Assembly (NCBI RefSeq): GCF_014836755.1
Contig: NZ_JACSQF010000003.1
Coordinates: 72,832-109,095 of the forward strand
Source of the DNA: Oerskovia merdavium
Lineage (GTDB): Bacteria; Actinomycetota; Actinomycetes; Actinomycetales; Cellulomonadaceae
DNA length: 36,264 nucleotides
Reading direction: 5' to 3'
Part shown: piece after piece, positions 6,110 through 30,831 of the stretch
Position numbering within the stretch: the first letter of the stretch is position 1
Layout: each line of letters opens with the position of its first letter
Program-made: the position numbers and the translations under genes
The notes under the pieces: model-generated
Seen by the model: only the letters and a program-made list of their open reading frames with translations
What the model was told of the DNA's origin: nothing
The model's database searches: none

Positions 6110-7771
6110 TCAGTGCGCGAAGTGGCGCGTGCCCGTCAGGTAGAGCGTGACGCCGGCAGCCTGTGCGGCTGCGATGACCTCGTCGTCGCGGACCGAGCCA
6201 CCGGGCTGGACCACGGCCTTGACGCCGGCGTCGAGCAGGACCTGCAGGCCGTCCGCGAACGGGAAGAACGCGTCGGACGCGGCCACCGAGCCGCGCGCAC
6301 GCTCCTCGCCCTCGGCGCCCAGGGTGTTGGCACGCTCGACCGACAGGCGGCACGAGTCGACGCGGTTGACCTGGCCCATGCCGATACCGACCGCTGCCCC
6401 GCCCTTGGCGAGCAGGATCGCGTTCGACTTCGCGGCACGCACGGCACGCCATGCGAACTCGAGGTCTGCGAGCGTCTCGGCGTCCGCAGCCTCGCCCGTC
6501 GCGAGCGTCCACGACTGGGGGCTGTCTCCACCGTTCTCCGACGCGGCGTCGATGCGGTCGACCTGCTGCATGAGCAGACCACCCGAGATGGGGCGGATCT
6601 CGACGCCTGCGCTCGGGGCGCCGTCGACCTGGAGCAGGCGGACGTTCTTCTTGCGCGAGAGGATCTCGAGCGCCTCGGGCTCGTAGCCCGGCGCCACGAC
6701 GACCTCGGTGAAGACCCCCGCGATCTGCTCTGCGGCGGCCGCGCTCACCACGGTGTTGGTCGCGATGACCCCGCCGTAGGCCGAGACCGGGTCGGTCGCG
6801 TGGGCCTTGGCGTGGGCGTCGGCCACGTCGGTGCCGACCGCGACGCCGCACGGGTTGGCGTGCTTGATGATCGCGACCGTCGGGGCGTCGCCGTGGTCGT
6901 GCGCGGCGCGCCACGCGGCGTCGGCGTCGACGTAGTTGTTGTAGCTCATCGCCTTGCCGTGGAGCTGGGTCGCCTGCGCGAGGCCCGAGGCACCGTGGCC
7001 GTTGGTGTAGAGCGCGGCACGCTGGTGCGGGTTCTCGCCGTAGCGCAGCACGTCGGAACGGTCCCAGGTGGCGCCGACCCAGGCGGGGAAACCGGTGGAG
7101 ACCGGACCGGCCTCGGCAGTGTCCACGACGTCGGTGGGCGCGACCACGCTGCTCATCCAGGACGCCACCGCGACGTCGTAGGTCGCGGTGTGCACGAACG
7201 CCTGCGCCGCGAGGAGCTTGCGCTGCGCGTACGTGAAGCCGCCCGCCTGGACGGCGGCGATCACGTCGCCGTAGGCGGCCGGGTCGACGACGACGGCCAC
7301 GCTCGGGTGGTTCTTCGCCGCGGCGCGGACCATCGAGGGGCCGCCGATGTCGATCTGCTCGATCACGGCGTCCGGACCGGCACCCGAAGCGACCGTGTCG
7401 GCGAAGGGGTACAGGTTGACGACGACGAGCTCGAACGGTGCGATCTCGAGCTGGGCGAGCTGCTCGAGGTGGTCCTGCTTGCGGGTGTCCGCGAGGATCC
7501 CCGCGTGCACGCGCGGGTGCAGGGTCTTGACGCGCCCCTCGAGGCACTCGGGGAAGCCCGTGAGCTCCTCGACCTTGGTCACGGGGATGCCCGCGGCTGC
7601 GACCGTGGACGCGGTCGAGCCGGTCGAGACGAGCTCGACGCCCGCGGCGTGCAGGGCCGTGGCCAGCTCGACCAGGCCGGTCTTGTCGTAGACGCTCAGC
7701 AGAGCGCGACGCACGGGACGCTGGGCGTCGTCGGCGATCTGGGTCTCGGGAGACGTGGGGGCTGCGGACAT
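6110..7771 (-). CDS. purH: Bifunctional AICAR formyltransferase / IMP cyclohydrolase
   Basis: Catalyses the last two steps of IMP synthesis: formylation of AICAR with 10-formyl-tetrahydrofolate, then cyclisation to IMP. At 553 residues it is slightly longer than the usual ~520-530. The N-terminal MGS-like cyclohydrolase domain is seen as [20 protein letters not shown], with [17 protein letters not shown] after it. The transformylase domain includes the catalytic [11 protein letters not shown] and ends in [12 protein letters not shown], the conserved C-terminus. The ATG at 7771 has a good AGGAG about 8 bases upstream. In most actinobacteria purN lies directly upstream; here three genes and a palindrome separate them, so purH probably has its own promoter. 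A weak TAAGAT -10 candidate lies at 7909-7914 on the minus strand. Confidence 0.97.
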
Positions 7772-20415: not shown

Positions 20416-20766
20416 TCAGACGAAGACGGCCACGATGATGTTGACGAGCGTGAGGCCGCCGATCGAGTGCTTGAGCGCGGGCGAGATCTTGTCCCCCTGG
20501 CGCACGCCGACGAACGCGAGGACGGCGATGATCACGGCGATGACCAGCTTGATGCCGATCTTGACCATGCTCGGCCCGCCGTCGTCCCACATGCCGCTCA
20601 TCTCGGCGACGCCGACCATGAGGATGCCCGCGACGGCAGCCGTCGCAGCACCGTGGAAGACGCCCTTGTTGAGCGCCGCGGACTTGAGCGACACGAAGTA
20701 GCCGCCGAGGACGATGGCCCAGCCGACGAAGTGCAGGACCGCGAACACGTTGTAGACGATTTCCAT
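20416..20766 (-). CDS. Small four-helix membrane protein
   Basis: A 116-residue integral membrane protein with about four hydrophobic helices: IVYNVFAVLHFVGWAIVLGG, a second around HGAATAAVAGILMVGVAEM, then KIGIKLVIAVIIAVLAFVGV and GGLTLVNIIVAVFV. A His in the first helix and Lys/Asp loops are present, but no catalytic motif. The family is not recognised; small actinobacterial proteins of this shape are annotated only as integral membrane proteins. The ATG at 20766 is preferred over an ATG at 20775 because a promoter puts the transcription start on it (leaderless). Confidence 0.75.
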   Translation of the reverse strand: MEIVYNVFAVLHFVGWAIVLGGYFVSLKSAALNKGVFHGAATAAVAGILMVGVAEMSGMWDDGGPSMVKIGIKLVIAVIIAVLAFVGVRQGDKISPALKHSIGGLTLVNIIVAVFV

Positions 20767-20773
20767 GGGCCCC

Positions 20774-20802
20774 ATCCTAGTTTGCTGACGCGACTGTCGG
20801 AA
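20774..20802 (-). promoter_or_regulatory. Promoter of the small membrane-protein gene
   Basis: On the minus strand TTCCGA (20797-20802) and TAGGAT (20774-20779) are separated by 17 bp. Transcription would begin at about 20766, exactly on the ATG, giving a leaderless message. Confidence 0.5.
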
Positions 20803-20928
20803 AAACTCCGCGTGTCGCCGCGCGGCGGGGACAGCCGACGAGACGTCTGGAGCCGCAGCGGCGAGGCCGAAGTCTGAGACACCCATCCACCATGCGGACA
20901 GGGGCTACCCATACGGTCGCGGCCTCTG

Positions 20929-20934
20929 TAGCGT
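20929..20934 (+). promoter_or_regulatory. -10 box of the cys operon leader
   Basis: TAGCGT ends eight bases before the ATG at 20942, so transcription should begin on that ATG. The -35 region is not consensus, which would fit activator-dependent expression. Confidence 0.5.
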
Positions 20935-20941
20935 TCCCGCC

Positions 20942-21028
20942 ATGACCACGGCAGCGCACCTCCTCCTCGTGACGACGCGTCACGAGTCGACGGCGTGCGC
21001 CCGCAACAGCTTCTGCTGTTGTTGTTGA
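20942..21028 (+). CDS. Cysteine-rich leader peptide of the sulfur operon
   Basis: A 28-codon open reading frame, far too short for routine gene calling. It begins MTTAAHLLLVTTRHES and ends with four consecutive Cys codons (TGC TGT TGT TGT, residues 25-28) directly before TGA; a fifth Cys is residue 19. The LLLVT-RH segment resembles short actinobacterial leader peptides found before sulfur genes, and a run of Cys codons is the hallmark of cysteine-responsive leaderless leaders described in mycobacteria. The ATG lies at the predicted transcription start. Scarce cysteinyl-tRNA would stall ribosomes at the end of the frame and change the folding of 21029-21174. Three of the four Cys codons in the run are TGT, the codon this GC-rich genome should use least, which could strengthen stalling. 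It lies 146 bases upstream of cysI. Confidence 0.85.
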   Translation: MTTAAHLLLVTTRHESTACARNSFCCCC

Positions 21029-21174
21029 CCCGCGCCTGACTCAGCCCGAGCCGTCCTCGCCGACAGCTCGCCATCTTTCTGAGCCGAGGGCGCGCGTGGT
21101 CGGCCCTCAGCCACTCCCCTCGTCGCGCTGAGACCTCTGGCCCCGTGTGCCCATGTCCCCCCATGAGGAGCACG
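21029..21174 (+). promoter_or_regulatory. Candidate attenuator between leader peptide and cysI
   Basis: Four short complementary segments alternate: CTCAG at 21040-21044, CTGAG at 21079-21083, CTCAG at 21106-21110 and CTGAG at 21128-21132. Segment 2 with segment 3 gives the best stem (21083-21091 with 21103-21111, 8 of 9 pairs, 11-base loop). Segments 3 and 4 form a competing 6-bp stem (21106-21111 with 21127-21132). This is a trp-like 1/2/3/4 arrangement. The terminator form would lack a U tract. The cysI ribosome site GAGGAG (21165-21170) is also complementary to CTCCTC inside the leader frame. Confidence 0.55.
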
Positions 21175-22998
21175 ATGACGCCGCCGCACACCACCACCGA
21201 GGCGACCCCGGTCGCCGACCGGTCGGCCGGCAGCAGCCCCGCCACCCCGGCAGAGGCCACCGTCGGCACGACCGCCGCGACCACCCCGCAGACGCCCGAC
21301 GGCGCCGCTCCCGCCGCGCGTCCGGCCCGCCCGGCGCGGGTCGCCCGCCCCAACGGCCAGTGGGCCGTCGACGGCAAGGAACCGCTCAACGGCAACGAGA
21401 AGTGGAAGCAGGAGGACGGCGGGCTCTCGGTGCGCCAGCGCATCGAGGACGTCTACTCGCGCGAGGGCTTCGACTCGATCTCGGGCGACGACCTGCACGG
21501 CCGCTTCCGCTGGTGGGGCCTGTACACGCAGCGCAAGCCCGGGATCGACGGCGGGCGCACGGCCCAGCTCGAGCCGCACGAGCTCGAGGACAAGTACTTC
21601 ATGCTCCGCGTGCGCATCGACGGCGGCGCGGTGAGCACCGAGCAGCTCCGGGTCATCGCGGACATCTCCCGGGACTTCGGACGCGACAGCGCCGACATCA
21701 CCGACCGCCAGAACATCCAGCTCCACTGGGTCGAGGTCGAGAACGTCCCGGAGATCTGGCGCCGGCTCGAGTCCGTCGGCCTGCAGACCACCGAGGCCTG
21801 CGGCGACGTCCCGCGCGTCGTGCTCGGCAGCCCCGTGGCCGGGATCGCGGCCGACGAGCTGATCGACCCCGCCCGCGTCATCAAGGAGATCACCGACAAG
21901 TACATCGGCGTCCCCGAGCTCGCGAACCTCCCCCGCAAGTTCAAGACCGCCGTCACGGGTCACCCGTCCCAGGACGTCGTCCACGAGATCAACGACGTCG
22001 GGTTCGTCGCGCTCGAGCACCCCGAGCTGGGCGTCGGGTTCGACCTGTGGGTCGGCGGCGGCCTGTCGGCGAACCCCCGCCTGGGCGAGCGCCTCGGTGC
22101 CTTCGTGACCGAGGAGCAGGTCGCCGACGTGTGGCACGGAGTGGTCCAGATCTTCCGCGACTACGGGTACCGCCGGCTGCGCAACAAGGCGCGCCTGAAG
22201 TTCCTGCTCGCGGACTGGGGGCCCACGAAGTTCCGCGAGGTCCTCGAGACCGAGTACCTGGGCTACGCGCTGCCCGACGGCCCGCCCGCCCCGCAGCCCA
22301 CCCAGCCGGGCGACCACGTCGGCGTGCACAAGCAGAAGGACGGCCTCAACTACATCGGCGCGGCCCCCTACGTGGGGCGGGTCTCGGGGAGCATCCTCGC
22401 GGCCGTCGCGGACCTCGCCGAGTCGGCCGGCTCGCAGCGCGTGCGGTTCACGCCGCACCAGAAGCTGCTCGTGCTCGACGTCCCCGACGAGCACCTCGAG
22501 CGCGTCGTCTCGGGTCTCAAGGAGCAGGGCCTCGACGCCGACCCGAGCCCCTTCCGCCGCAGCACCATCGCGTGCACGGGCATCGAGTACTGCAAGCTCG
22601 CGATCGTCGAGACCAAGGCCTCGGCGAGCCGCGCGATCGACGACCTCGAGAAGCGCCTGGGCGACCTGTCCGCGATGAAGCCGCTCTCGCTGCACATCAA
22701 CGGCTGCCCCAACTCGTGCGCCCGCATCCAGACCGCGGACATCGGTCTCAAGGGTCAGCTCGTGCTGGACGACGAGGGCAACCAGGTCCCCGGCTTCCAG
22801 GTGCACCTCGGTGGCGGGCTCGCCTCGGACGACCGCGCCGAGGCGGGCATGGGCCGCACGGTCCGTGGCCTCAAGGTCACCAACGACGACCTGCCCGAGT
22901 ACGTCGAGCGCGTCGTGCGCCAGTTCGAGAAGGAGAAGGACGGCACCGAGACCTTCGCCCAGTGGGCGCACCGCGCGGACGAGGAGTCGCTGCGATGA
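21175..22998 (+). CDS. cysI: Assimilatory sulfite reductase (siroheme, [4Fe-4S])
   Basis: Reduces sulfite to sulfide with six electrons, in the cytoplasm. The 607-residue product has the two-fold nitrite/sulfite reductase architecture: a ferredoxin-like half-domain (YFMLRVRIDGGAVSTEQLR, then GRDSADITDRQNIQLHWVE) and the siroheme/cluster domain. Cys467 and Cys473 (CTGIEYC) with Cys511 and Cys515 (NGCPNSC) bind the [4Fe-4S] cluster bridged to siroheme. The absence of a flavoprotein gene (cysJ) nearby and the overall type suggest ferredoxin as electron donor, as in actinobacterial SirA/NirA enzymes. The first ~60 residues are a low-complexity Ala/Pro/Thr extension that includes one copy of the dispersed GCCCGACGGCGC element. 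Start ATG 21175 is fixed by AGGAG five bases upstream. It is the first structural gene of the sulfur operon, under the Cys leader. Confidence 0.95.
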   Translation: MTPPHTTTEATPVADRSAGSSPATPAEATVGTTAATTPQTPDGAAPAARPARPARVARPNGQWAVDGKEPLNGNEKWKQEDGGLSVRQRIEDVYSREGFDSISGDDLHGRFRWWGLYTQRKPGIDGGRTAQLEPHELEDKYFMLRVRIDGGAVSTEQLRVIADISRDFGRDSADITDRQNIQLHWVEVENVPEIWRRLESVGLQTTEACGDVPRVVLGSPVAGIAADELIDPARVIKEITDKYIGVPELANLPRKFKTAVTGHPSQDVVHEINDVGFVALEHPELGVGFDLWVGGGLSANPRLGERLGAFVTEEQVADVWHGVVQIFRDYGYRRLRNKARLKFLLADWGPTKFREVLETEYLGYALPDGPPAPQPTQPGDHVGVHKQKDGLNYIGAAPYVGRVSGSILAAVADLAESAGSQRVRFTPHQKLLVLDVPDEHLERVVSGLKEQGLDADPSPFRRSTIACTGIEYCKLAIVETKASASRAIDDLEKRLGDLSAMKPLSLHINGCPNSCARIQTADIGLKGQLVLDDEGNQVPGFQVHLGGGLASDDRAEAGMGRTVRGLKVTNDDLPEYVERVVRQFEKEKDGTETFAQWAHRADEESLR

Positions 22999-23900
22999 GC
23001 GGGACGACCACCGCGCCGGGTGACGCGCTCGACGCTGCGGGCGCGGCGCCGTCGGGCACGCCGCTCGCCACGACCGGCAACGACCCGCTCGCCGCGCTGC
23101 GCGCCGCCGCCAAGGCGCGCACCGAGGCGCGCGCCACGTCCAAGGCCGCGCACGCGGCCCGCCGGGCGCGGGACGCCCGCCCCAAGCGGTCGGCCGACGA
23201 GCTGCGCGCGATCGTCGAGCGCGGTCAGGCCGAGCTGCACGGCTCAGGGCTGGGCGCCGCTGATGAAGCGACCGCCGAGCAGGTCGTCGCGTGGGCCGTG
23301 CGCGAGTTCAGCGGCTCGATCGCCGTCGCGTGCTCCATGGCCGACGCGGTCCTCCCGCACGTCGTCGCGCAGCAGGCACCGTGGGTCGACGTCCTGTTCC
23401 TCGAGACCGGATACCACTTCCCCGAGACCACGGGGACGCGCGACGCCGTCGAGCAGCAGATGGAGGTCACGATCGTCGACGTCCTGCCCCGGCTCACGGT
23501 CGCCCAGCAGGACGAGGCGCACGGCAAGGACCTCTGGTCGCGCGACCCCGCAGCGTGCTGCGCGATGCGCAAGGTCGAACCGTTGACACGCACGCTCGGC
23601 GAGTACGAGGTCTGGGTCACGGGCGTGCGTCGCGACGAGGCACCGACCCGCACCAGCACCCCGCTCGTGACCTGGGACGAGAAGAACGGGCTGGTCAAGA
23701 TCAACCCGCTCGCCGCGTGGTCGTTCGACGACCTGCTCGGCTACGCGGCCCAGCACCAGGTCGTCCTCAACCCGCTCCTCAACGACGGGTACCCCTCGAT
23801 CGGCTGCGCGCCCTGCACGCGGCGGGTCGCCCCCGGCGAGGACCCGCGCGCGGGCCGCTGGTCTGGGCTCGACAAGACCGAGTGCGGGCTCCACGTATGA
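22995..23900 (+). CDS. cysH: APS reductase (adenylyl-sulfate reductase, thioredoxin-type)
   Basis: Reduces adenosine 5'-phosphosulfate to sulfite and AMP. The 301-residue protein carries both cysteine pairs (Cys188-Cys189 in AACCAMRKVEPL and Cys271-Cys274 in GCAPCTRR) that bind a [4Fe-4S] cluster, marking it as an APS rather than a PAPS reductase; this fits the lack of a cysC kinase. The PP-loop-type fold shows VACSMADAVLPHVV, DVLFLETGYHFPETTGTRD and WVTGVRRDEAPTR. The C-terminal Cys in KTECGLHV is the catalytic one. The first ~75 residues are an Ala/Arg-rich extension not needed by the family. Its ATG overlaps the cysI stop by four bases, so translation is coupled. Confidence 0.95.
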   Translation: MSGTTTAPGDALDAAGAAPSGTPLATTGNDPLAALRAAAKARTEARATSKAAHAARRARDARPKRSADELRAIVERGQAELHGSGLGAADEATAEQVVAWAVREFSGSIAVACSMADAVLPHVVAQQAPWVDVLFLETGYHFPETTGTRDAVEQQMEVTIVDVLPRLTVAQQDEAHGKDLWSRDPAACCAMRKVEPLTRTLGEYEVWVTGVRRDEAPTRTSTPLVTWDEKNGLVKINPLAAWSFDDLLGYAAQHQVVLNPLLNDGYPSIGCAPCTRRVAPGEDPRAGRWSGLDKTECGLHV

Positions 23901-24937
23901 GCGCGCCCACCGCGACCACGGCGACGTCCTCGCCGACCGCACCGACCACCGCGACCGCACCCCCCACGCACACCGACGAGAAGAGCGACGCCGTGACCGC
24001 CCCAGTGGCTTCCCCTGCGGATACCGCCCAGACCTACCGCCTGACCCAGCTCGAGTCCCTCGAGTCCGAGGCCATCCACATCATCCGCGAGGTCGTCGCG
24101 GAGTTCGAGCGCCCCGTGCTGCTCTTCAGCGGTGGCAAGGACTCGGTCGTCATGCTGCACCTGGCGACCAAGGCGTTCTGGCCCGCCCCCGTGCCGTTCC
24201 CGCTGCTGCACGTCGACACGGGCCACAACTTCCCCGAGGTCCTCGCCTACCGAGACACGACGGTCGCCCGCCTCGGCGCCCGCCTCGAGGTCGCGAGCGT
24301 CCAGGACTACCTCGACGACGGTCGCCTGCTCGAACGTGCCGACGGCACGCGCAACCCCCTCCAGACCCAGCCCCTGCTCGACGCCATCACAGGGCACAAG
24401 TTCGACGCCGTGTTCGGCGGCGGCCGCCGCGACGAGGAGAAGGCGCGCGCCAAGGAGCGCGTCATCTCGCTGCGCGACGAGTTCGGGCAGTGGGACCCGC
24501 GCAACCAGCGCCCCGAGCTGTGGAACCTGTACAACGGCCGTCACCGCCCGGGCGAGCACGTCCGCGCGTTCCCCCTGAGCAACTGGACCGAGCTCGACAT
24601 CTGGCGCTACATCGCCGCCGAGAAGATCGACCTGCCCAGCCTGTACTACGCGCACGAGCGCGAGGTCTTCGAGCGCGACGGCATGCTGCTCGCCGTCGGG
24701 CCGTACTCCCAGCCGCGCACCGACGCCGAGGCCTCGAACGTGCGCACCGAGACCGTGCGCTACCGGACGGTGGGCGACATGTCCTGCACGGGCGCGGTCG
24801 AGTCCGACTCCTACACGGTCGACGACGTCATCACCGAGGTCGCAGCGACCCGCATCACCGAGCGCGGCGCCACGCGCGCCGACGACCGCATCTCCGAAGC
24901 CGCCATGGAAGACCGCAAGAAGGAGGGGTACTTCTAG
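23897..24937 (+). CDS. cysD: Sulfate adenylyltransferase, subunit 2
   Basis: The catalytic, PP-loop subunit of ATP sulfurylase; it forms APS from sulfate and ATP together with CysN. The 346-residue protein begins with a ~45-residue Thr/Ala/Pro-rich extension (about 300 is usual). The core starts at LTQLESLESEAIHIIREV, with the PP-loop LFSGGKDSVVML near residues 76-87, and continues with HVDTGHNFPEVLAYRD and FGGGRRDEEKARAKER. The C-terminal GRHRPGEHVRAFPLSNWTE, YYAHEREVF and DRISEAAMEDRKKEGYF are all highly conserved. The ATG overlaps the cysH stop by four bases. Confidence 0.96.
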   Translation: MSAPTATTATSSPTAPTTATAPPTHTDEKSDAVTAPVASPADTAQTYRLTQLESLESEAIHIIREVVAEFERPVLLFSGGKDSVVMLHLATKAFWPAPVPFPLLHVDTGHNFPEVLAYRDTTVARLGARLEVASVQDYLDDGRLLERADGTRNPLQTQPLLDAITGHKFDAVFGGGRRDEEKARAKERVISLRDEFGQWDPRNQRPELWNLYNGRHRPGEHVRAFPLSNWTELDIWRYIAAEKIDLPSLYYAHEREVFERDGMLLAVGPYSQPRTDAEASNVRTETVRYRTVGDMSCTGAVESDSYTVDDVITEVAATRITERGATRADDRISEAAMEDRKKEGYF

Positions 24938-26325
24938 TGAGCGCCACCACCACGCACCCGCAGCCCGCCGAGGGCACGGCCGCCCAGGACTCGCCCGTGC
25001 TCCCCACGAGCACCCTGCTGCGCCTCGCGACCGCCGGATCCGTCGACGACGGGAAGTCGACGCTCGTCGGCCGCCTGCTGTTCGACTCCAAGTCCGTGCT
25101 CGCGGACCAGCTCGACGCCGTCGAGCGCGTCTCGCGCGACCGCGGTCTCGCGACGGCCGACCTCGCGCTGCTGACCGACGGCCTGCGCGCCGAGCGCGAG
25201 CAGGGCATCACGATCGACGTCGCCTACCGCTACTTCGCGACCGCCAGGCGCTCGTTCATCCTGGCCGACTGCCCCGGGCACGTGCAGTACACGCGCAACA
25301 CCGTCACGGGGGCCTCGACCGCCGACGTCGTCGTGCTGCTCATCGACGCCCGCAAGGGCCTGCTCGAGCAGACGCGCCGCCACCTCGCGGTCGCGAGCCT
25401 CCTGCGCGTCCCGCACGTGATCGTGGCCGTCAACAAGATCGACCTCGTCGACTACAGCCAGGAGCGCTACGAGGAGCTCGCCGACCAGATCCGCGAGGCC
25501 GCGGCCTCGCTCGGCGTCCCCCACATCCTCACGCTGCCCGTCTCGGCGCTCGAGGGCGTCAACGTCGTCGACCGCTCGGACGGCCCGGGCGGCAAGACCC
25601 CCTGGTACGACGGACCGAGCCTGCTCGACCTGCTCGAGGAGCTCCCCGCGGCAGAGACCCCGGACACCGAGGCGTTCCGCTTCCCCGTCCAGGTGGTCCT
25701 GCGTCCCCAGGGCGCCGCGCTCGAGGAGCGCTTCCGCGACTACCGCGGGTACGCCGGGCAGATCGCCTCGGGCGTCGTCCGCGTGGGCGACGAGATCGTG
25801 GTCCTGCCCAGCGGGAGGAGGAGCACGGTCGAGGGCATCGACACGGCCGACGGCACTCTCGCCGAGGCCTTCGCCCCCCAGTCCGTCACGATCCGCCTCA
25901 CGGACGAGATCGACATCGCCCGCGGCGACCTCATCGCCGCCGCGGTCGACGCACCCCAGGTCACGCAGGACGTCGAGGGCACCGTCGCGTGGCTCAGCGA
26001 CAAGACGCTGCGCCCCGGCACCCGCGTCCTGCTCAAGCACACGACCCGCACCGTGCAGGCCGTGGTGCGCGACGTCGTCGGGCGCCTGGACCTCGACACG
26101 GCCGAGCTCGAGCCCGCGGAAGCGCTCGAGCTCAACGACATCGGGCGCGTCACGCTGCGCCTCGCCTCCCCCGTCGCGGCCGAGGAGTACATCACCTCGC
26201 GTCGCACCGGTGCTTTCCTCCTGATCGACGGTCAGGACGGCGGCACCCTTGCAGCAGGAATGGTCGGAGACGCTCTGGCGGCCGTGCGATGTCCTTCGCA
26301 GCGCCCCGTGCAGTACGCGATCTGA
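24937..26325 (+). CDS. cysN: Sulfate adenylyltransferase, subunit 1 (GTPase)
   Basis: An elongation-factor-like GTPase whose hydrolysis drives APS formation by CysD. The 462-residue product shows the P-loop GSVDDGKST (residues 34-42), the switch II motif DCPGH (111-115) and the base-specificity motif NKID (166-169). Domain 2 and 3 barrels follow, including QVVLRPQGAALEERFRDYRGYAGQI in two parts. There is no CysC (APS kinase) fusion at the C-terminus, consistent with the direct APS reductase route. The GTG at 24937 shares one base with the cysD stop and has AGGAGG upstream. The last 14 bases before the stop form one arm of a long inverted repeat that closes over the following gap. Confidence 0.96.
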   Translation: MSATTTHPQPAEGTAAQDSPVLPTSTLLRLATAGSVDDGKSTLVGRLLFDSKSVLADQLDAVERVSRDRGLATADLALLTDGLRAEREQGITIDVAYRYFATARRSFILADCPGHVQYTRNTVTGASTADVVVLLIDARKGLLEQTRRHLAVASLLRVPHVIVAVNKIDLVDYSQERYEELADQIREAAASLGVPHILTLPVSALEGVNVVDRSDGPGGKTPWYDGPSLLDLLEELPAAETPDTEAFRFPVQVVLRPQGAALEERFRDYRGYAGQIASGVVRVGDEIVVLPSGRRSTVEGIDTADGTLAEAFAPQSVTIRLTDEIDIARGDLIAAAVDAPQVTQDVEGTVAWLSDKTLRPGTRVLLKHTTRTVQAVVRDVVGRLDLDTAELEPAEALELNDIGRVTLRLASPVAAEEYITSRRTGAFLLIDGQDGGTLAAGMVGDALAAVRCPSQRPVQYAI

Positions 26326-26388
26326 GGTCACCCGACCACCGCAGGTAGGGGCCCGGACCACCGGGCCCTCGGATCGCGTACTGCATGG
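26306..26388 (+). terminator. Nested hairpin spanning the cysN stop codon
   Basis: Outer arms 26309-26322 and 26372-26385 are a perfect 14-bp inverted repeat, extended to 17 bp with one G-U pair (26306-26388). Inside is an 8-bp GC hairpin, GGGCCCGG and CCGGGCCC (26349-26356, 26361-26368). It separates the cysIHDN part of the operon from the transporter part, and may partly terminate transcription or protect the upstream mRNA. Confidence 0.7.
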
Positions 26389-26454
26389 ATCGGCGCTGCC
26401 GGGACTCGACACGTCCACCGCCAGGCACCCTCCGACCATCCAGAAGGATCTTCC

Positions 26455-27585
26455 ATGAACACCTCGTCCCGCCCGACCCGCGCCTCCCGGGCCGCCACGC
26501 CACGACACCGCTTCGCCCGGACCCGGTCCGCGGTCGCAGCGCTCGCCGTCGCGCCGCTGCTCCTGCTCGCCGCCTGCTCCACGGGCACGTCCGACGCCGC
26601 CGACGCCCCCGCCGCGTCGTCCGGCCCGGCCGACGAGCTGCGCCTCGGCTACTTCGCGAACGTCACGCACGCCCCCGCGCTCGTCGGGGTCGCGGGCGGC
26701 CAGTTCGAGGAGGCCCTGGGCGACACCAAGCTGACGACCCAGGTCTTCAACGCCGGTCCCGCCGCGATCGAAGCCCTCAACGCGGGCGCCATCGACGCCA
26801 CGTTCATCGGCCCCAACCCCGCGATCAACAACTTCGTGAAGTCGAACGGTGAGGCCGTGCGCATCATCGCGGGCTCGACGTCGGGCGGTGCGCAGCTCGT
26901 CGTGCGCGAGGGGATCGACACGGCCGCCGACCTCGAGGGCACCAAGATCGCCTCGCCCCAGCTCGGCGGGACCCAGGACGTCGCGCTGCGCGCCTGGCTC
27001 ACCGAGAACGGCCTGGAGAACGACATCCAGGGCGGCGGGGACGTCGCGGTCACCCCGACCGAGAACGCCCAGACCCTCACGCTGTTCCAGAACGGCGAGC
27101 TCGACGGCGGCTGGCTGCCCGAGCCCTGGGCCTCGCGCCTCGTGCTCGACGCCGGAGCGCACGTCCTGGTCGACGAGAAGGACCTGTGGGACGACGGCCA
27201 GTTCCTCACCACGCACCTGATCGTCCGCACCGACTTCCTCGAGGAGCACCCGGAGACGGTCGAGGCGCTCCTGCGCGGCGAGGTCGCGGCGATCGACTGG
27301 CTCGACGCCAACCCCGACGAGGCCAAGACGCTCGTCAACGGCGAGATCGAGAAGATCGCCGGCAAGCCGCTGTCGGACGCGGTCCTGGACCGCGCCTTCA
27401 CCAACATCACCTTCACCACGGACCCGCTCGCGGGCACGCTCAACACCCTGCTCGAGGACGGCGTGACCGCCGGGACCACCACCGAGGCGGACCTGAACGG
27501 CATCTACGACCTGAGCCTCCTCAACAAGGTGCTGACGGAGGCCGGTCAGCCGACCGTCTCCGCCGCCGGTCTCGGCAAGGAGTAG
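26455..27585 (+). CDS. SsuA/TauA-type substrate-binding lipoprotein
   Basis: The extracytoplasmic binding protein of an ABC importer, 376 residues. It has a lipoprotein signal: a basic N-terminus, hydrophobic AVAALAVAPLLLLAAC and a lipobox LLAAC with Cys41 as the lipidated residue. The mature part is of the NitT/TauT (SsuA-like) class: LRLGYFANVTHAPALVGVAGG, then GPAAIEALNAGAIDATFIGP, and VVREGIDTAADLEGTKIASPQLGGTQD in two stretches. Sulfonates, taurine and related sulfur compounds are typical ligands, and the cys context supports a sulfur source; nitrate-like or vitamin ligands in the same superfamily cannot be excluded. The start ATG follows AGAAGGATCTTCC. It is separated from cysN by a nested hairpin. 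Confidence 0.9.
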   Translation: MNTSSRPTRASRAATPRHRFARTRSAVAALAVAPLLLLAACSTGTSDAADAPAASSGPADELRLGYFANVTHAPALVGVAGGQFEEALGDTKLTTQVFNAGPAAIEALNAGAIDATFIGPNPAINNFVKSNGEAVRIIAGSTSGGAQLVVREGIDTAADLEGTKIASPQLGGTQDVALRAWLTENGLENDIQGGGDVAVTPTENAQTLTLFQNGELDGGWLPEPWASRLVLDAGAHVLVDEKDLWDDGQFLTTHLIVRTDFLEEHPETVEALLRGEVAAIDWLDANPDEAKTLVNGEIEKIAGKPLSDAVLDRAFTNITFTTDPLAGTLNTLLEDGVTAGTTTEADLNGIYDLSLLNKVLTEAGQPTVSAAGLGKE

Positions 27586-27589
27586 CACC

Positions 27590-28405
27590 ATGACCACCAC
27601 GTCCCCCGCCCGCACGGGCTCCCCTGCCGGCATCACCCTCGACGAGGGTGCCGGCCCCACGACCGGCGTCCGCCTGCGCGGCGTGTCCAAGCGGTTCTCC
27701 CCGACGGGCGCCCCGGTGCTCGAGGGGATCGACCTGGACATCGCGCAGGGCGAGTTCGTCTGCCTGCTCGGAGCCTCCGGCTGCGGCAAGTCGACGCTGC
27801 TCAACATCGTCGCGGGTCTGGAGCGCCCGACCACGGGGGACGTGGAGGTCGCCGGGGGCGGCGCGGCCCTGATGTTCCAGGAGTCCGCGCTGTTCCCCTG
27901 GCTCACCGCGAGCCGCAACATCGAGCTCGCGCTGAAGTTCCGCGGCGTGCCGCGCGCCGAGCGGCGTGAACGTGCCGCCGAGCTCCTCTCGCTCGTGCGG
28001 CTCGACGGATCGGGCGACAAGCGCGTCCACGAGCTCTCGGGCGGCATGCGCCAGCGCGTCGCGCTCGCTCGCTCGCTCGCCCAGGAGCGGGACGTCCTGC
28101 TCATGGACGAGCCGTTCGCCGCGCTCGACGCCATCACGCGCGACCTGCTCCACGACGAGCTCGAGCGCGTCTGGGAGCAGACCGGGCGCACCATCGTCTT
28201 CATCACGCACAACGTCCGCGAGGCCGTGCGGCTCGGGCAGCGCGTGCTGCTCATGTCCTCGCGCCCCGGACGCATCGTGCGCGAGTGGGACGTCGACGTG
28301 TACGGCGCGAACGAGCAACGCAGCATCGAGGCCGCCGCCGCGTCGCGCCTCGCGACCGAGATCACCAACGACCTCCGTGAGGAGATCCGCCGTCATGCCG
28401 TCTGA
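27590..28405 (+). CDS. SsuB-type ABC transporter ATPase
   Basis: The cytoplasmic ATPase of the importer, 271 residues. Walker A is GASGCGKST (residues 61-69), the Q-loop is FQESALFPW (Gln97), the ABC signature LSGGM is at 149-153, Walker B is VLLMDEP (169-175) followed by the D-loop ALDA, and the switch His is in FITHN. The short N-terminal extension (about 25 residues) is low complexity. The motifs MFQESALFPWLTASRNIELAL and VREAVRLGQRVLLMSSRPG are typical of NitT/TauT/SsuB ATPases. The ATG lies four bases after the binding-protein stop, with AAGGAG upstream. Confidence 0.92.
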   Translation: MTTTSPARTGSPAGITLDEGAGPTTGVRLRGVSKRFSPTGAPVLEGIDLDIAQGEFVCLLGASGCGKSTLLNIVAGLERPTTGDVEVAGGGAALMFQESALFPWLTASRNIELALKFRGVPRAERRERAAELLSLVRLDGSGDKRVHELSGGMRQRVALARSLAQERDVLLMDEPFAALDAITRDLLHDELERVWEQTGRTIVFITHNVREAVRLGQRVLLMSSRPGRIVREWDVDVYGANEQRSIEAAAASRLATEITNDLREEIRRHAV

Positions 28406-29441
28406 GACCCTGACCCCGCGGGACGAGGCCCGTCCCGGTTCCGGCCCGGCCGAGAGTCCCACCACCCGGCCCGCCGACGAGGTGAGCACACCCCGCGAGG
28501 TGAGCGCCGTCGTCGGGCACGCCAAGGACGTGGGCGACATCGAGGCGGGCCTCGACGCCCTCCAGACGAGCGTCGCGCCCAGCGCGAGCCGGTGGTCCAA
28601 GGTCTTCCAGGCCGTGTACCCGCCCGTGCTCGCGATCGCGATCCTGCTCGCGGTCTGGCAGGTGCTGGTGTGGCTCGAGGTCCAGCCCATCTACAACCTG
28701 CCCGGCCCCACGCAGGTCTGGGAGGCCGTGACCCGGGCCGCCGCGAGCGGCACGCTCTGGCAGGCGCTCGGCACGAGCCTCTCGCGCGGTGTCCTGGGCT
28801 TCCTCGCAGCCGTCGCGATCGGTACCCCGCTGGGCATCCTGGTGGCACGCGTGCGCTGGGTGCGGGTGTCGTTCGGGCCCATCATCACGGGCCTGCAGGT
28901 GCTGCCGTCGGTCGCCTGGGTGCCCGCGGGCATCATCTGGTTCGGGCTGTCGGACGCCACGGTGTACTTCGTGATCCTCATGGGCGCGGTCCCGTCGATC
29001 ATCAACGGGATCGTGTCCGGCGTGGACCAGGTGCCGCCGCTGTACCGGCGCGTGGGCCAGGTCCTGGGCGCGGGCCGCTTCCAGATGATCAAGGACGTGA
29101 TCCTGCCCGCAGCGTTCCCCGGCTACCTCGCGGGCCTCAAGCAGGGCTGGGCGTTCTCGTGGCGCTCGCTCATGGCCGCGGAGATCATCGCGGTCGGCGG
29201 CGGGATCGGGTTCGGGCTGGGGGCCTTCCTCCAGCAGGGCCGCGAGCTGTCCGACATGGCGCTCGTCTTCACCGCGATCCTGCTGATCCTCGTGGTCGGC
29301 ATGGTCATCGAGCTGCTCTTCTTCGCTCCGGTCGAGAAGACCATGCTGCGTCGCCGCGGCCTGGCTCCCGAGACGTCCACGAGCAAGGGCCCGGGGTGGC
29401 TGCGCCGGCGTGAGCTGGCTTCGGCCGCTCTCGGGCGATGA
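28395..29441 (+). CDS. SsuC-type ABC transporter permease
   Basis: The membrane subunit of the importer, 348 residues. A polar N-terminal region of about 70 residues precedes six hydrophobic helices, from PPVLAIAILLAVWQVLVWL to LVFTAILLILVVGMVIELLF. The EAA-type cytoplasmic loop that contacts the ATPase is GAGRFQMIKDVILPAAFPGY, and the family segment WRSLMAAEIIAVGGGIGFGL follows. The start ATG at 28395 overlaps the end of the ATPase gene by 11 bases. The N-terminal extension is longer than in E. coli SsuC (about 260 residues in all), so a later start remains possible, but no better one with a Shine-Dalgarno was seen. Confidence 0.9.
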   Translation: MPSETLTPRDEARPGSGPAESPTTRPADEVSTPREVSAVVGHAKDVGDIEAGLDALQTSVAPSASRWSKVFQAVYPPVLAIAILLAVWQVLVWLEVQPIYNLPGPTQVWEAVTRAAASGTLWQALGTSLSRGVLGFLAAVAIGTPLGILVARVRWVRVSFGPIITGLQVLPSVAWVPAGIIWFGLSDATVYFVILMGAVPSIINGIVSGVDQVPPLYRRVGQVLGAGRFQMIKDVILPAAFPGYLAGLKQGWAFSWRSLMAAEIIAVGGGIGFGLGAFLQQGRELSDMALVFTAILLILVVGMVIELLFFAPVEKTMLRRRGLAPETSTSKGPGWLRRRELASAALGR

Positions 29442-29448
29442 TGGGCGC

Positions 29449-30831
29449 ATGAACTCTGAGCTCTACCCCCTCGGTCTGCGGATCGCAGGCCGTCCGGTCG
29501 TCGTCGTGGGCGGGGGGCCGGTGGCCGCGCGCCGCACGCGGTCCCTCGTGGGCGCGGGCGCGCAGGTGCGTGTCGTGGCCCCCGAGGTCTGCGAGGACCT
29601 GGCGGCGCTGGTCGCCCTCCCCGCGCCCGACGGCGCGACTCACCTGCCCGACGGCGCGACTCACCTGCCCGACGGCGCGGGGCCCCTCGCCGGGTCCGGC
29701 ACGCCCCGGCCCGTGGTCACGTGGGACGCGCGCGCGTTCCGCCCGGGCGACCTCGAGGGTGCGTGGCTCGTGCACACCGCGACCGGTTCGACCGAGGTCG
29801 ACGCCCAGGTCGCTGCCGAGGCCGAGGCGCTGCGCATCTTCTGCGTGAACGCGGGCGACGCCGAGGCCGGGACCGCCTGGGTGCCCGCGGTCGCGCGGGT
29901 CACGGTCGGCGGCACTGCGGTCGGCGGCACTGCGGCGACCGCTTCGTCGTCCGCGACCGTCGCGTCGGATGCCCGCGCCACGGAGATCACCGTCGCCGTC
30001 AACGCGGGGCGCGACCCGCGACGGGCCCAGCGGATCCGCGACGCGATCGACGCCCTGCTCGCGACCGGTGAGCTCCCCCTGCGTCAGGTCCGCCCGGGCA
30101 CGGGCGGCGTCGGGATGGTCGCGCTCGTGGGTGGTGGCCCCGGCGACACCGGGCTCATCACGGCGCGCGGGCGGCGGCTGCTCGCCCAGGCCGACGTCGT
30201 GGTCACCGACCGCCTGGGGCCGCGTTCGCTGCTCGACGACCTGGACGACGACGTCGTGATCGTCGACGTCGGCAAGACCCCGGGCTTCCACCCGGTCCCG
30301 CAGGAGGAGATCAACGCGCTGCTTGTCGAGCACGCGCTCGCCGGCCGAAGAGTTGTACGACTCAAGGGCGGCGACCCGTACGTATTCGGCCGCGGAGGTG
30401 AGGAGCTCATCGCGTGCGAGGAGCACGGCATCCCGGTCGAGGTCGTGCCTGGCGTGACGAGCGCGGTCTCGGTACCTGCGGCGGTGGGGATCCCGGTCAC
30501 GCACCGTGGCTGGTCGCGCGGCTTCACGGTGCTGACCGGGCACGAGGACATCGGCAAGGTCCCGGCCGCGGCCGACCACACCGTGATCCTTCTCATGGGT
30601 GTCTCGCGGCTGCGCGACTCGGCCGCGGCCCTCGTGGCCTTCGGGCGGTCACCGCGGACGCCGGTCGCCGTGGTCGAGGACGGCTACGGCCCGCGCCAGC
30701 GCTCGACCGTCGGCACGCTCGAGACCATCGCGGACGTGGCCACCGCGGCCGGGGTCCGTGCGCCGGCCGTGACCGTGGTCGGGGACGTGGTGCGCGTCAG
30801 CCCTGCCTGGCGGGCTGCCGGGCTGGACTGA
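29449..30831 (+). CDS. cysG: Siroheme synthase: precorrin-2 dehydrogenase and uroporphyrinogen-III C-methyltransferase
   Basis: Makes siroheme precursors for CysI. The 460-residue protein has an N-terminal NAD-binding dehydrogenase (VVVVGGGPVAARRTRSLV, glycine loop at 21-27) and a C-terminal SUMT domain from about residue 223 (VALVGGGPGDTGLITARGRR, then RLKGGDPYVFGRGGEE at 304-319, and VPGVTSAVSVPAAVGIPVTHRG in two parts). The dehydrogenase domain carries two in-frame insertions: a 7-residue repeat PDGATHL (about residues 60-78) encoded by a 21-bp tandem array, and VGGTA twice (residues 153-162). Placement as the last gene of the cys operon, seven bases after the permease, fits its role. Whether the chelatase activity is retained is unclear. 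Start ATG 29449. Confidence 0.93.
   Translation: MNSELYPLGLRIAGRPVVVVGGGPVAARRTRSLVGAGAQVRVVAPEVCEDLAALVALPAPDGATHLPDGATHLPDGAGPLAGSGTPRPVVTWDARAFRPGDLEGAWLVHTATGSTEVDAQVAAEAEALRIFCVNAGDAEAGTAWVPAVARVTVGGTAVGGTAATASSSATVASDARATEITVAVNAGRDPRRAQRIRDAIDALLATGELPLRQVRPGTGGVGMVALVGGGPGDTGLITARGRRLLAQADVVVTDRLGPRSLLDDLDDDVVIVDVGKTPGFHPVPQEEINALLVEHALAGRRVVRLKGGDPYVFGRGGEELIACEEHGIPVEVVPGVTSAVSVPAAVGIPVTHRGWSRGFTVLTGHEDIGKVPAAADHTVILLMGVSRLRDSAAALVAFGRSPRTPVAVVEDGYGPRQRSTVGTLETIADVATAAGVRAPAVTVVGDVVRVSPAWRAAGLD
29625..29679 (+). repeat. 21-bp tandem repeat inside cysG
   Basis: Two exact 21-base units (29625-29645, 29646-29666) and a 13-base partial third (29667-29679). Each begins GCCCGACGGCGC, the core of the icd and pcrA terminators, and keeps frame, adding PDGATHL per unit. 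Confidence 0.9.
29904..29933 (+). repeat. 15-bp tandem duplication inside cysG
   Basis: GGTCGGCGGCACTGC occurs twice in direct succession (29904-29918, 29919-29933), adding VGGTA in frame. Confidence 0.85.

Follow-up and report, generated by a model that had tools for sequence, protein, structure and literature searches.

A candidate cysteine-responsive attenuator with a putatively leaderless poly-cysteine reading frame upstream of a sulfur operon in Oerskovia and related actinobacteria

Leaderless short open reading frames (sORFs) of Mycobacterium smegmatis that encode polycysteine reportedly act as cysteine-responsive attenuators, a finding that is said to go back to Canestrari et al. in 2020 and to concern six loci. 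Cysteine (Cys) leader peptides had been predicted in Mycobacterium, P. acnes and B. longum cbs, with no terminators in the account given there (Seliverstov et al. 2005, PMC1262725), and later papers describe ribosomes seen on a poly-Cys-type frame in M. smegmatis (Shell et al. 2015, PMC4633059), poly-Cys leaders of M. smegmatis as translation attenuation (PMC13236596), and translation at M. smegmatis leaders as regulated by cysteine availability (PMC9031893). Here we describe a poly-Cys leader ORF, and the RNA segments that separate it from cysI, the first gene of a cysteine and sulfur assimilation operon, in a 36,264-nucleotide (nt) stretch of the Oerskovia merdavium genome (the window; contig NZ_JACSQF010000003.1, positions 72,832 to 109,095). 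A sequence-only reading of this stretch had proposed that the genus shares the mycobacterial logic. That logic was indeed already known, from the 2005 prediction and from what the later papers say of M. smegmatis, and "this genus" proved too narrow, since the leader is found across the family and an RNA model matched one locus in another family. Our analysis indicates that the locus is probably a ribosome-stalling, cysteine-responsive attenuator placed upstream of the sulfur operon.

The leader ORF comprises 28 codons, reads ATG...TGC TGT TGT TGT TGA, specifies the peptide MTTAAHLLLVTTRHESTACARNSFCCCC, and closes with Cys-Cys-Cys-Cys-stop 146 nt before the cysI ATG. Its ATG lies 7 nt downstream of TAGCGT, a –10 box of the TANNNT type, and from this spacing we infer a leaderless start, with a predicted transcription start site at or next to the ATG; a scan of positions 20760-21200 for the two-box σ70 consensus returned no promoter. 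The frame with its four terminal Cys codons, its distance from cysI and the box that would put the start of transcription on its ATG are all as the sequence-only reading had placed them. No peptide family matched the leader in NCBIfam (E up to 1) or Pfam (E up to 0.001).

The occurrence of this leader is not a matter of chance, because a leader with a TANNNT box was present upstream of 42 of 66 cysI loci from the same family, whereas none of the 66 reverse complements and none of 2640 dinucleotide shuffles had one. Without the requirement for a box the counts were 49 of 66, 3 of 66 and 45 of 2640, and a first scan for a Cys-ended sORF, covering 114 loci in which some strains were present twice, gave 41 of 114, against 0 of 114 reverse complements and 155 of 5700 approximate shuffles. 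(Note that a search of 81 family genomes found cysI itself in 62, at E ≤ 1e-100.) Of the 80 named loci 79 were taken, and 17 of these carried a leader with the box; L071, whose upstream sequence was too short, was dropped from the leader count. Among the 55 distant named loci (those beyond L026, mostly Arthrobacter, Pseudarthrobacter and Microbacterium, with the leader-bearing L029 set aside) there were no leaders with the box and two without it, the same number as in the reverse complements.

What is kept in these leaders is the Cys-rich end. The peptides diverge widely (MTTAAHLLLVT-RH..., MHTARNLDLTQ..., MTASARPLAP...), and in 38 distinct leaders, which are related and so do not supply independent events, Cys makes up 122 of the 228 codons in the last six positions compared with 59 of the 960 other codons; the conservation of the Cys codons at related cysI loci that the sequence-only reading had called for is thereby borne out. 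In one congener, L084, the stop is TAA in place of TGA and the Cys run is retained. TGT accounts for 117 of the 181 Cys codons in the 38 leaders, versus 1 of 19 in six operon genes (the other 18 being TGC); as the rarer and wobble-read codon, UGU would be expected to raise the sensitivity of the run to the supply of Cys-tRNA. With cysI start codons picked by Shine-Dalgarno (SD) score, 37 of the 41 non-redundant loci have 129-163 nt between the leader stop and cysI, and the rest have 78, 101, 111 and 119 nt. At L099 and L103 (gaps of 111 and 101 nt) a long stem of the GCGCGAC...GTCGCGC type precedes cysI and replaces the four-segment layout described below.

Within the same genome, two stop-anchored Cys-run patterns and an RNA model, a search that was not exhaustive, produced no second convincing Cys leader. 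The pattern TGYTGYTGYTGA occurs at four places, the other three of which have no in-frame ATG or GTG; TGYTGYCGNTGA occurs at 24 places, and none of the 23 inspected (L166 was not) has a TANNNT-preceded start; and the RNA model, R2, recovered this locus alone at a convincing E value, the next being 0.44 and 3.68.

Between the leader and cysI, CTCAG and CTGAG alternate four times (at 21040, 21079, 21106 and 21128), as had been noticed from the letters alone. Loci of Oerskovia and Cellulosimicrobium keep CGCGCC plus CTCAG (segment 1), CTGAG plus GG(G)CGCGCG (segment 2), GTCGG-CCTCAG (segment 3) and CTGAG (segment 4), together with the anti-SD element and the SD, and other family members differ in the segment sequences. 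We assessed the pairings with an alignment-free test that compares the duplex energy of segments from the same locus with that of the same segments taken from different groups, because an ordinary alignment shifts the segments by about one base. The main version used 37 of the 41 non-redundant loci, in 11 groups; L019, L099, L103 and L138, which have no element B (see below) by pattern, were left out. Own duplexes exceeded foreign ones for 1:2 (p = 0.0039), 2:3 (p = 0.0001) and anti-SD:SD (p = 0.004), where the p values serve as guides, the segment windows having been set after inspection of the sequences, nine pairings having been tested and the groups being related. The worst values on leaving out one group were 0.0245, 0.0015 and 0.0255, respectively, and the control pairings were flat (1:3, 0.68; 1:C, 0.53; 2:4, 0.20; 1:4, 0.23). 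Pairing 3:4 (p = 0.077) was not significant in these 37 loci, nor was element B with element C (p = 0.13). In a first version, with 19 representatives, the values were 0.0002 for 1:2, 0.0014 for 2:3, 0.27 for 3:4 and 0.12 for B:C. The covariation among segments 1-4 that had been proposed as a check was found for 1:2 and 2:3 and was not significant for 3:4.

An alignment of 25 loci, A5 (R2 likewise used 25, and six GTG-started leaders were excluded from the RNA work), gave further evidence for 1:2: as many cells paired arose in 1 of 500 shuffles, as many double-changed cells in 3 of 500 and as high a covariation score in 3 of 500, and 1:2 exceeded all slid versions of itself in cells paired, double-changed cells, pair types and score. 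These results support, at the level of sequence comparison, a switch whose anatomy is a pair of helices, 1:2 and 2:3, that are predicted to be mutually exclusive because both use segment 2.

The way in which such a switch might work can be set out as follows. Transcription would start at the ATG of the leaderless ORF, as the –10 geometry suggests. With ample Cys-tRNA, a ribosome would read UGC UGU UGU UGU, terminate at UGA and depart, whereupon segment 1, just past the stop, would pair with segment 2, segment 3 could pair with segment 4, and the SD of cysI would be kept in a local hairpin (the OFF state). With Cys-tRNA scarce, the ribosome would stall on the Cys codons with its front shielding segment 1, and the freed segment 2 would pair with segment 3 instead, allowing the operon to be expressed (the ON state). 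Both the cysteine signal and the role of the ribosome are what we infer. In folding models, masking 8-11 nt past the stop lowered the mean number of 1:2 pairs from about 8 to about 2.5 and raised that of 2:3 from about 1.2 to about 2.6 (15 loci), and the SD was usually hidden (mean unpaired 0.31-0.34 in 27 loci).

A number of observations weigh against this interpretation. The leader is missing from 24 of the 66 family loci and from all 55 of the more distant named loci. Anti-SD:SD gave p = 0.061 in the version with 19 representatives, and for this reason it is the least firm of the three supported pairings. In A5, neither double-changed pairs (202 of 500 shuffles as high) nor further pair types (318 of 500), the measures least prone to relatedness, rose above shuffles for 1:2, and one slide had more double-changed pairs than 1:2 itself (4 versus 3). 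The RNAalifold consensus was a helix between elements B and C rather than 1:2 or 2:3. At equilibrium, just 6 of the 15 loci formed as many as five 2:3 pairs under any of the masks, and in the two loci of the Oerskovia type that were included, the window's own among them, 2:3 did not exceed 0.2 pairs. Moving the ribosome edge left the accessibility of the SD unchanged at equilibrium (means 0.31-0.34, 27 loci), and forcing 1:2 or 2:3 gave accessibilities of 0.36 and 0.37, with the SD more open in 8 and less open in 6 of 35 loci. A ribosome on the first Cys codon, moreover, would leave segment 1 exposed. The case for 2:3 is thus carried by covariation and not by the folding model, which yields this helix in 6 of the 15 loci but not at the locus in the window.

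We considered the B:C helix (GGGCGCGCG with CGTGTGCCC) as the main anti-sequestering structure. It is paired in 90.3% of cells in alignment A4 (31 of the 41 non-redundant loci, with six Promicromonospora-like loci, L019, L099, L103 and L138 dropped), but this did not exceed shuffles and, with p = 0.13 as given above, the helix was rejected in that role. In one RNAalifold run it was chosen together with a small hairpin that falls in the loop between segments 1 and 2, and we retain B:C as no more than a possible pairing.

The covariance model R2 of the 1-2-3 stretch, searched across 149 genomes of the order, gave eight matches: six of the model-building loci, one locus, L183 (E = 4.1e-5), that was new and belongs to another family, and a weak one, L184, which has no cysI and is probably a chance match. 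At least five family genomes were without a match. L183 lies directly upstream of a cysI (73.8% identity). Read from its sequence, its leader ends Cys-Arg-Cys-Arg-stop, and the ATG follows a TAGATT box at a distance of 7 nt; the leader filter, which demands more Cys, missed it. At this locus 2:3 is strong, only 5 of 74 foreign pairings being its equal, but the same holds for the control pairing 1:3 (3 of 74), whereas 1:2 is unremarkable (34 of 74), which again counts against the proposed switch. L183 therefore supports the location of the element more than its fold.

If the locus is a cysteine-responsive attenuator, its output may be the initiation of cysI translation, a view that we favor only slightly, as the later papers describe the M. 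smegmatis leaders in this way; the folding models offer no explanation of how the choice between 1:2 and 2:3 would reach the SD. Alternatively, the same leader and switch could act through termination by Rho within the C-rich stretch that lies untranslated between the leader and cysI. This stretch has no U-tract and a C/G ratio of 1.37-2.38 in 41 of 41 non-redundant loci (1.56 at the locus in the window; 2.4% of 146-nt windows, both strands counted, have a ratio this high), and the uncoupling of SD access from the switch in the folding models also points toward Rho. Seliverstov et al. proposed Rho for the mycobacterial cys leaders, in a prediction that they called rather weak (PMC1262725). Composition alone, however, is no proof of a rut site, and the M. 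smegmatis case is called translational in the later accounts (PMC13236596, PMC9031893); we consider an output through Rho unlikely, though it is the strongest of the alternatives.

The absence of a modeled link between the stems and the SD also fits a plain upstream ORF, the translation of which just delivers or releases ribosomes while the conserved stems serve as stability elements, as do the 146 nt that separate leader and gene and the lack of a predicted 2:3 in the window's own sequence. Such an ORF would not be expected to conserve a terminal Cys run in peptides that otherwise drift, or to be followed by covarying pairings that are mutually exclusive, and we regard this explanation as improbable.

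The sequence-only reading had favored a trp-like 1/2/3/4 fold, in which 3:4 would be an intrinsic terminator. The CTCAG and CTGAG segments and the covarying, mutually exclusive 1:2 and 2:3 agree with such a fold, and that part of the proposal stood; its terminator end-point was not supported. No 8 nt of the gap contain more than 5 T in any of the 41 non-redundant loci (maxima of 2 to 5), and the T-rich 8-mers of the window's own gap are confined to 21071-21083, before segment 2 rather than after 3:4, which together make an intrinsic terminator unlikely. In addition, a terminator scan found no terminator-like site on the + strand, and the 3:4 hairpin, whose pairing did not reach significance, is barely more stable than shuffles (mean z –0.36). 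We rejected the intrinsic terminator as a candidate, and a classical trp-type attenuator is in our estimation very unlikely.

The attenuator that we propose would serve an operon with a Pfam content of NIR_SIR, two PAPS_reduct genes (cysH and cysD), a cysN-type GTPase, an NMT1-type binding protein, an ABC ATPase, a permease and a cysG-type gene, in keeping with the transporter and cysG noted earlier; the nearest named relatives of its CysI are from Oerskovia species (93% identity). The features of the locus are collected in Table 1. Upstream of the leader lies an imperfect palindrome that matches the NdgR motif printed in PMC4340878 at all but one of its 15 positions. Among the 46 leader loci fetched, the motif CC...AT..GGAC was present in 44, at a distance of 39-43 nt upstream of the leader ATG; counted once per sequence it was present in 38 of 40, and the reversed-sequence control gave none in two sets of 67 and 79 upstream regions. 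In S. coelicolor, NdgR bound upstream of cysI and induced it, as reported in PMC4340878, and the present genome has 10 IclR-type helix-turn-helix matches as a candidate pool for a putative NdgR. The palindrome is a possible second control, at the level of the promoter. That promoter control through an NdgR-like regulator is the whole story, with the ORF incidental, seems most improbable of all, for although the palindrome keeps its distance from the leader at 44 of the 46 loci and NdgR acts on cysI in S. coelicolor, such control leaves the Cys run, the spacing and the covariation unexplained, and both layers can coexist.

Table 1. Positions of the leader, RNA segments and operon in the window.
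Feature	Position	Strand	Basis or remark
Imperfect palindrome ATCCACCATGCGGAC, NdgR (IclR-type) operator-like, ends 42 nt before leader ATG	20885..20899	+	Motif conservation
–10 box TAGCGT	20929..20934	+	TANNNT 6-8 nt before leader start in 42/66 family loci
Leader ORF, poly-Cys, 28 codons	20942..21028	+	Frame, translation, conservation
Inverted repeat CTCGTGACGACGCGTCACGAG within leader ORF, codes LVT-RH part	20966..20986	+	GTGAC-N5-GTCAC in 19/38 distinct leaders
Cys codons TGC TGT TGT TGT (before TGA 21026-21028)	21014..21025	+	Cys enrichment in last six codons, 38 distinct related leaders
Segment 1: CGCGCC + CTCAG	21031..21044	+	Pairing with segment 2, p = 0.0039; most alignment A5 measures
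Segment 2: CTGAG + GGGCGCGCG	21079..21096	+	Alternative partner of segments 1 and 3
Segment 3: GTCGGCCCTCAG	21099..21110	+	2:3, p = 0.0001
Segment 4: CTGAG, potential partner of segment 3, not followed by a T-rich stretch	21128..21132	+	3:4, p = 0.077
Anti-SD element CGTGTGCCC, also a potential partner of GGGCGCGCG in segment 2	21144..21152	+	Anti-SD:SD, p = 0.004
Shine-Dalgarno GAGGAG of cysI	21165..21170	+	
cysI/sirA, first gene of the operon (SirA-type, NIR_SIR domains)	21175..22998	+	Pfam
Operon remainder: cysH, cysD, cysN, substrate-binding protein, ABC ATPase, permease, cysG	22995..30831	+	Pfam; later starts approximate

The LLLVT-RH segment of the leader had been singled out as a distinctive combination with the Cys run. 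An inverted repeat does coincide with it in 19 of the 38 distinct leaders, and in the window this repeat takes the form CTCGTGAC-N5-GTCACGAG. All 20 Arg-His pairs in the 38 leaders are coded CGT CAC, whereas the six operon genes prefer CGC to CGT by 136 to 15; given the coincident repeat and this uniform coding, the segment seems as much a property of the nucleic acid as of the peptide. An RNA hairpin and a DNA operator are candidate roles for the repeat.

Rfam at its gathering threshold returned nothing at 20929-21174. The single match in the window was a ZMP/ZTP riboswitch (RF01750; 7820-7907, – strand), just upstream of a purH-type AICARFT/IMPCHase gene (6110-7771, – strand).

These results raise the possibility, which we put forward tentatively and at somewhat less than even strength, of a family-wide switch without an Rfam match, in which a leaderless poly-Cys ORF, with a sensing run made mostly of the rare Cys codon UGU, would choose between two covarying and mutually exclusive pairings, with no terminator and under an NdgR-like promoter site, so that a single operon would respond at the ribosome to amino-acid supply and at the promoter to a regulator. 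Among the papers listed by our literature searches, none linked Oerskovia or Cellulomonas to cysteine attenuation.

Like the mycobacterial polycysteine leaderless sORFs, the leader described here has a Cys run near the stop, cysteine genes downstream and a leaderless start, here predicted, and in both cases stalling is proposed to free a hidden ribosome-binding site; unlike them, it is, within the non-exhaustive search above, a single leader for a single operon of assimilation genes, transporter and cysG, and its RNA pairings covary across the family. The leaders predicted by Seliverstov et al., as set out in that paper (PMC1262725), likewise have runs of Cys codons near the stop and no obvious terminator, whereas here competing pairings are supported. 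Classical trp-type attenuators share with the present element pairings 1:2 and 2:3 that exclude each other and would be set by the position of the ribosome, but here there is no U-tract terminator, the ORF is predicted to be leaderless, and a putative SD hairpin stands in place of the terminator. The uORFC-8-2 motif upstream of cysS in the Rhodobacterales combines tandem Cys codons in an upstream ORF with RNA stems, as the leader in Oerskovia does, and is described as alphaproteobacterial, associated with cysS and endowed with a U run consistent with an intrinsic terminator (PMC8632094). The kind of system is therefore known, and what this locus adds are the covarying, competing pairings, the spread within the family and the single-operon layout. 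Cysteine attenuation would be extended from mycobacteria to another actinobacterial family, and the prediction of 2005 would gain the covariation-supported RNA pairings that it lacked. The competition between 1:2 and 2:3, the SD hairpin and the UGU-rich sensor run all translate into precise, testable mutations, and a system confined to one operon should be simpler to test than one spread across several loci.
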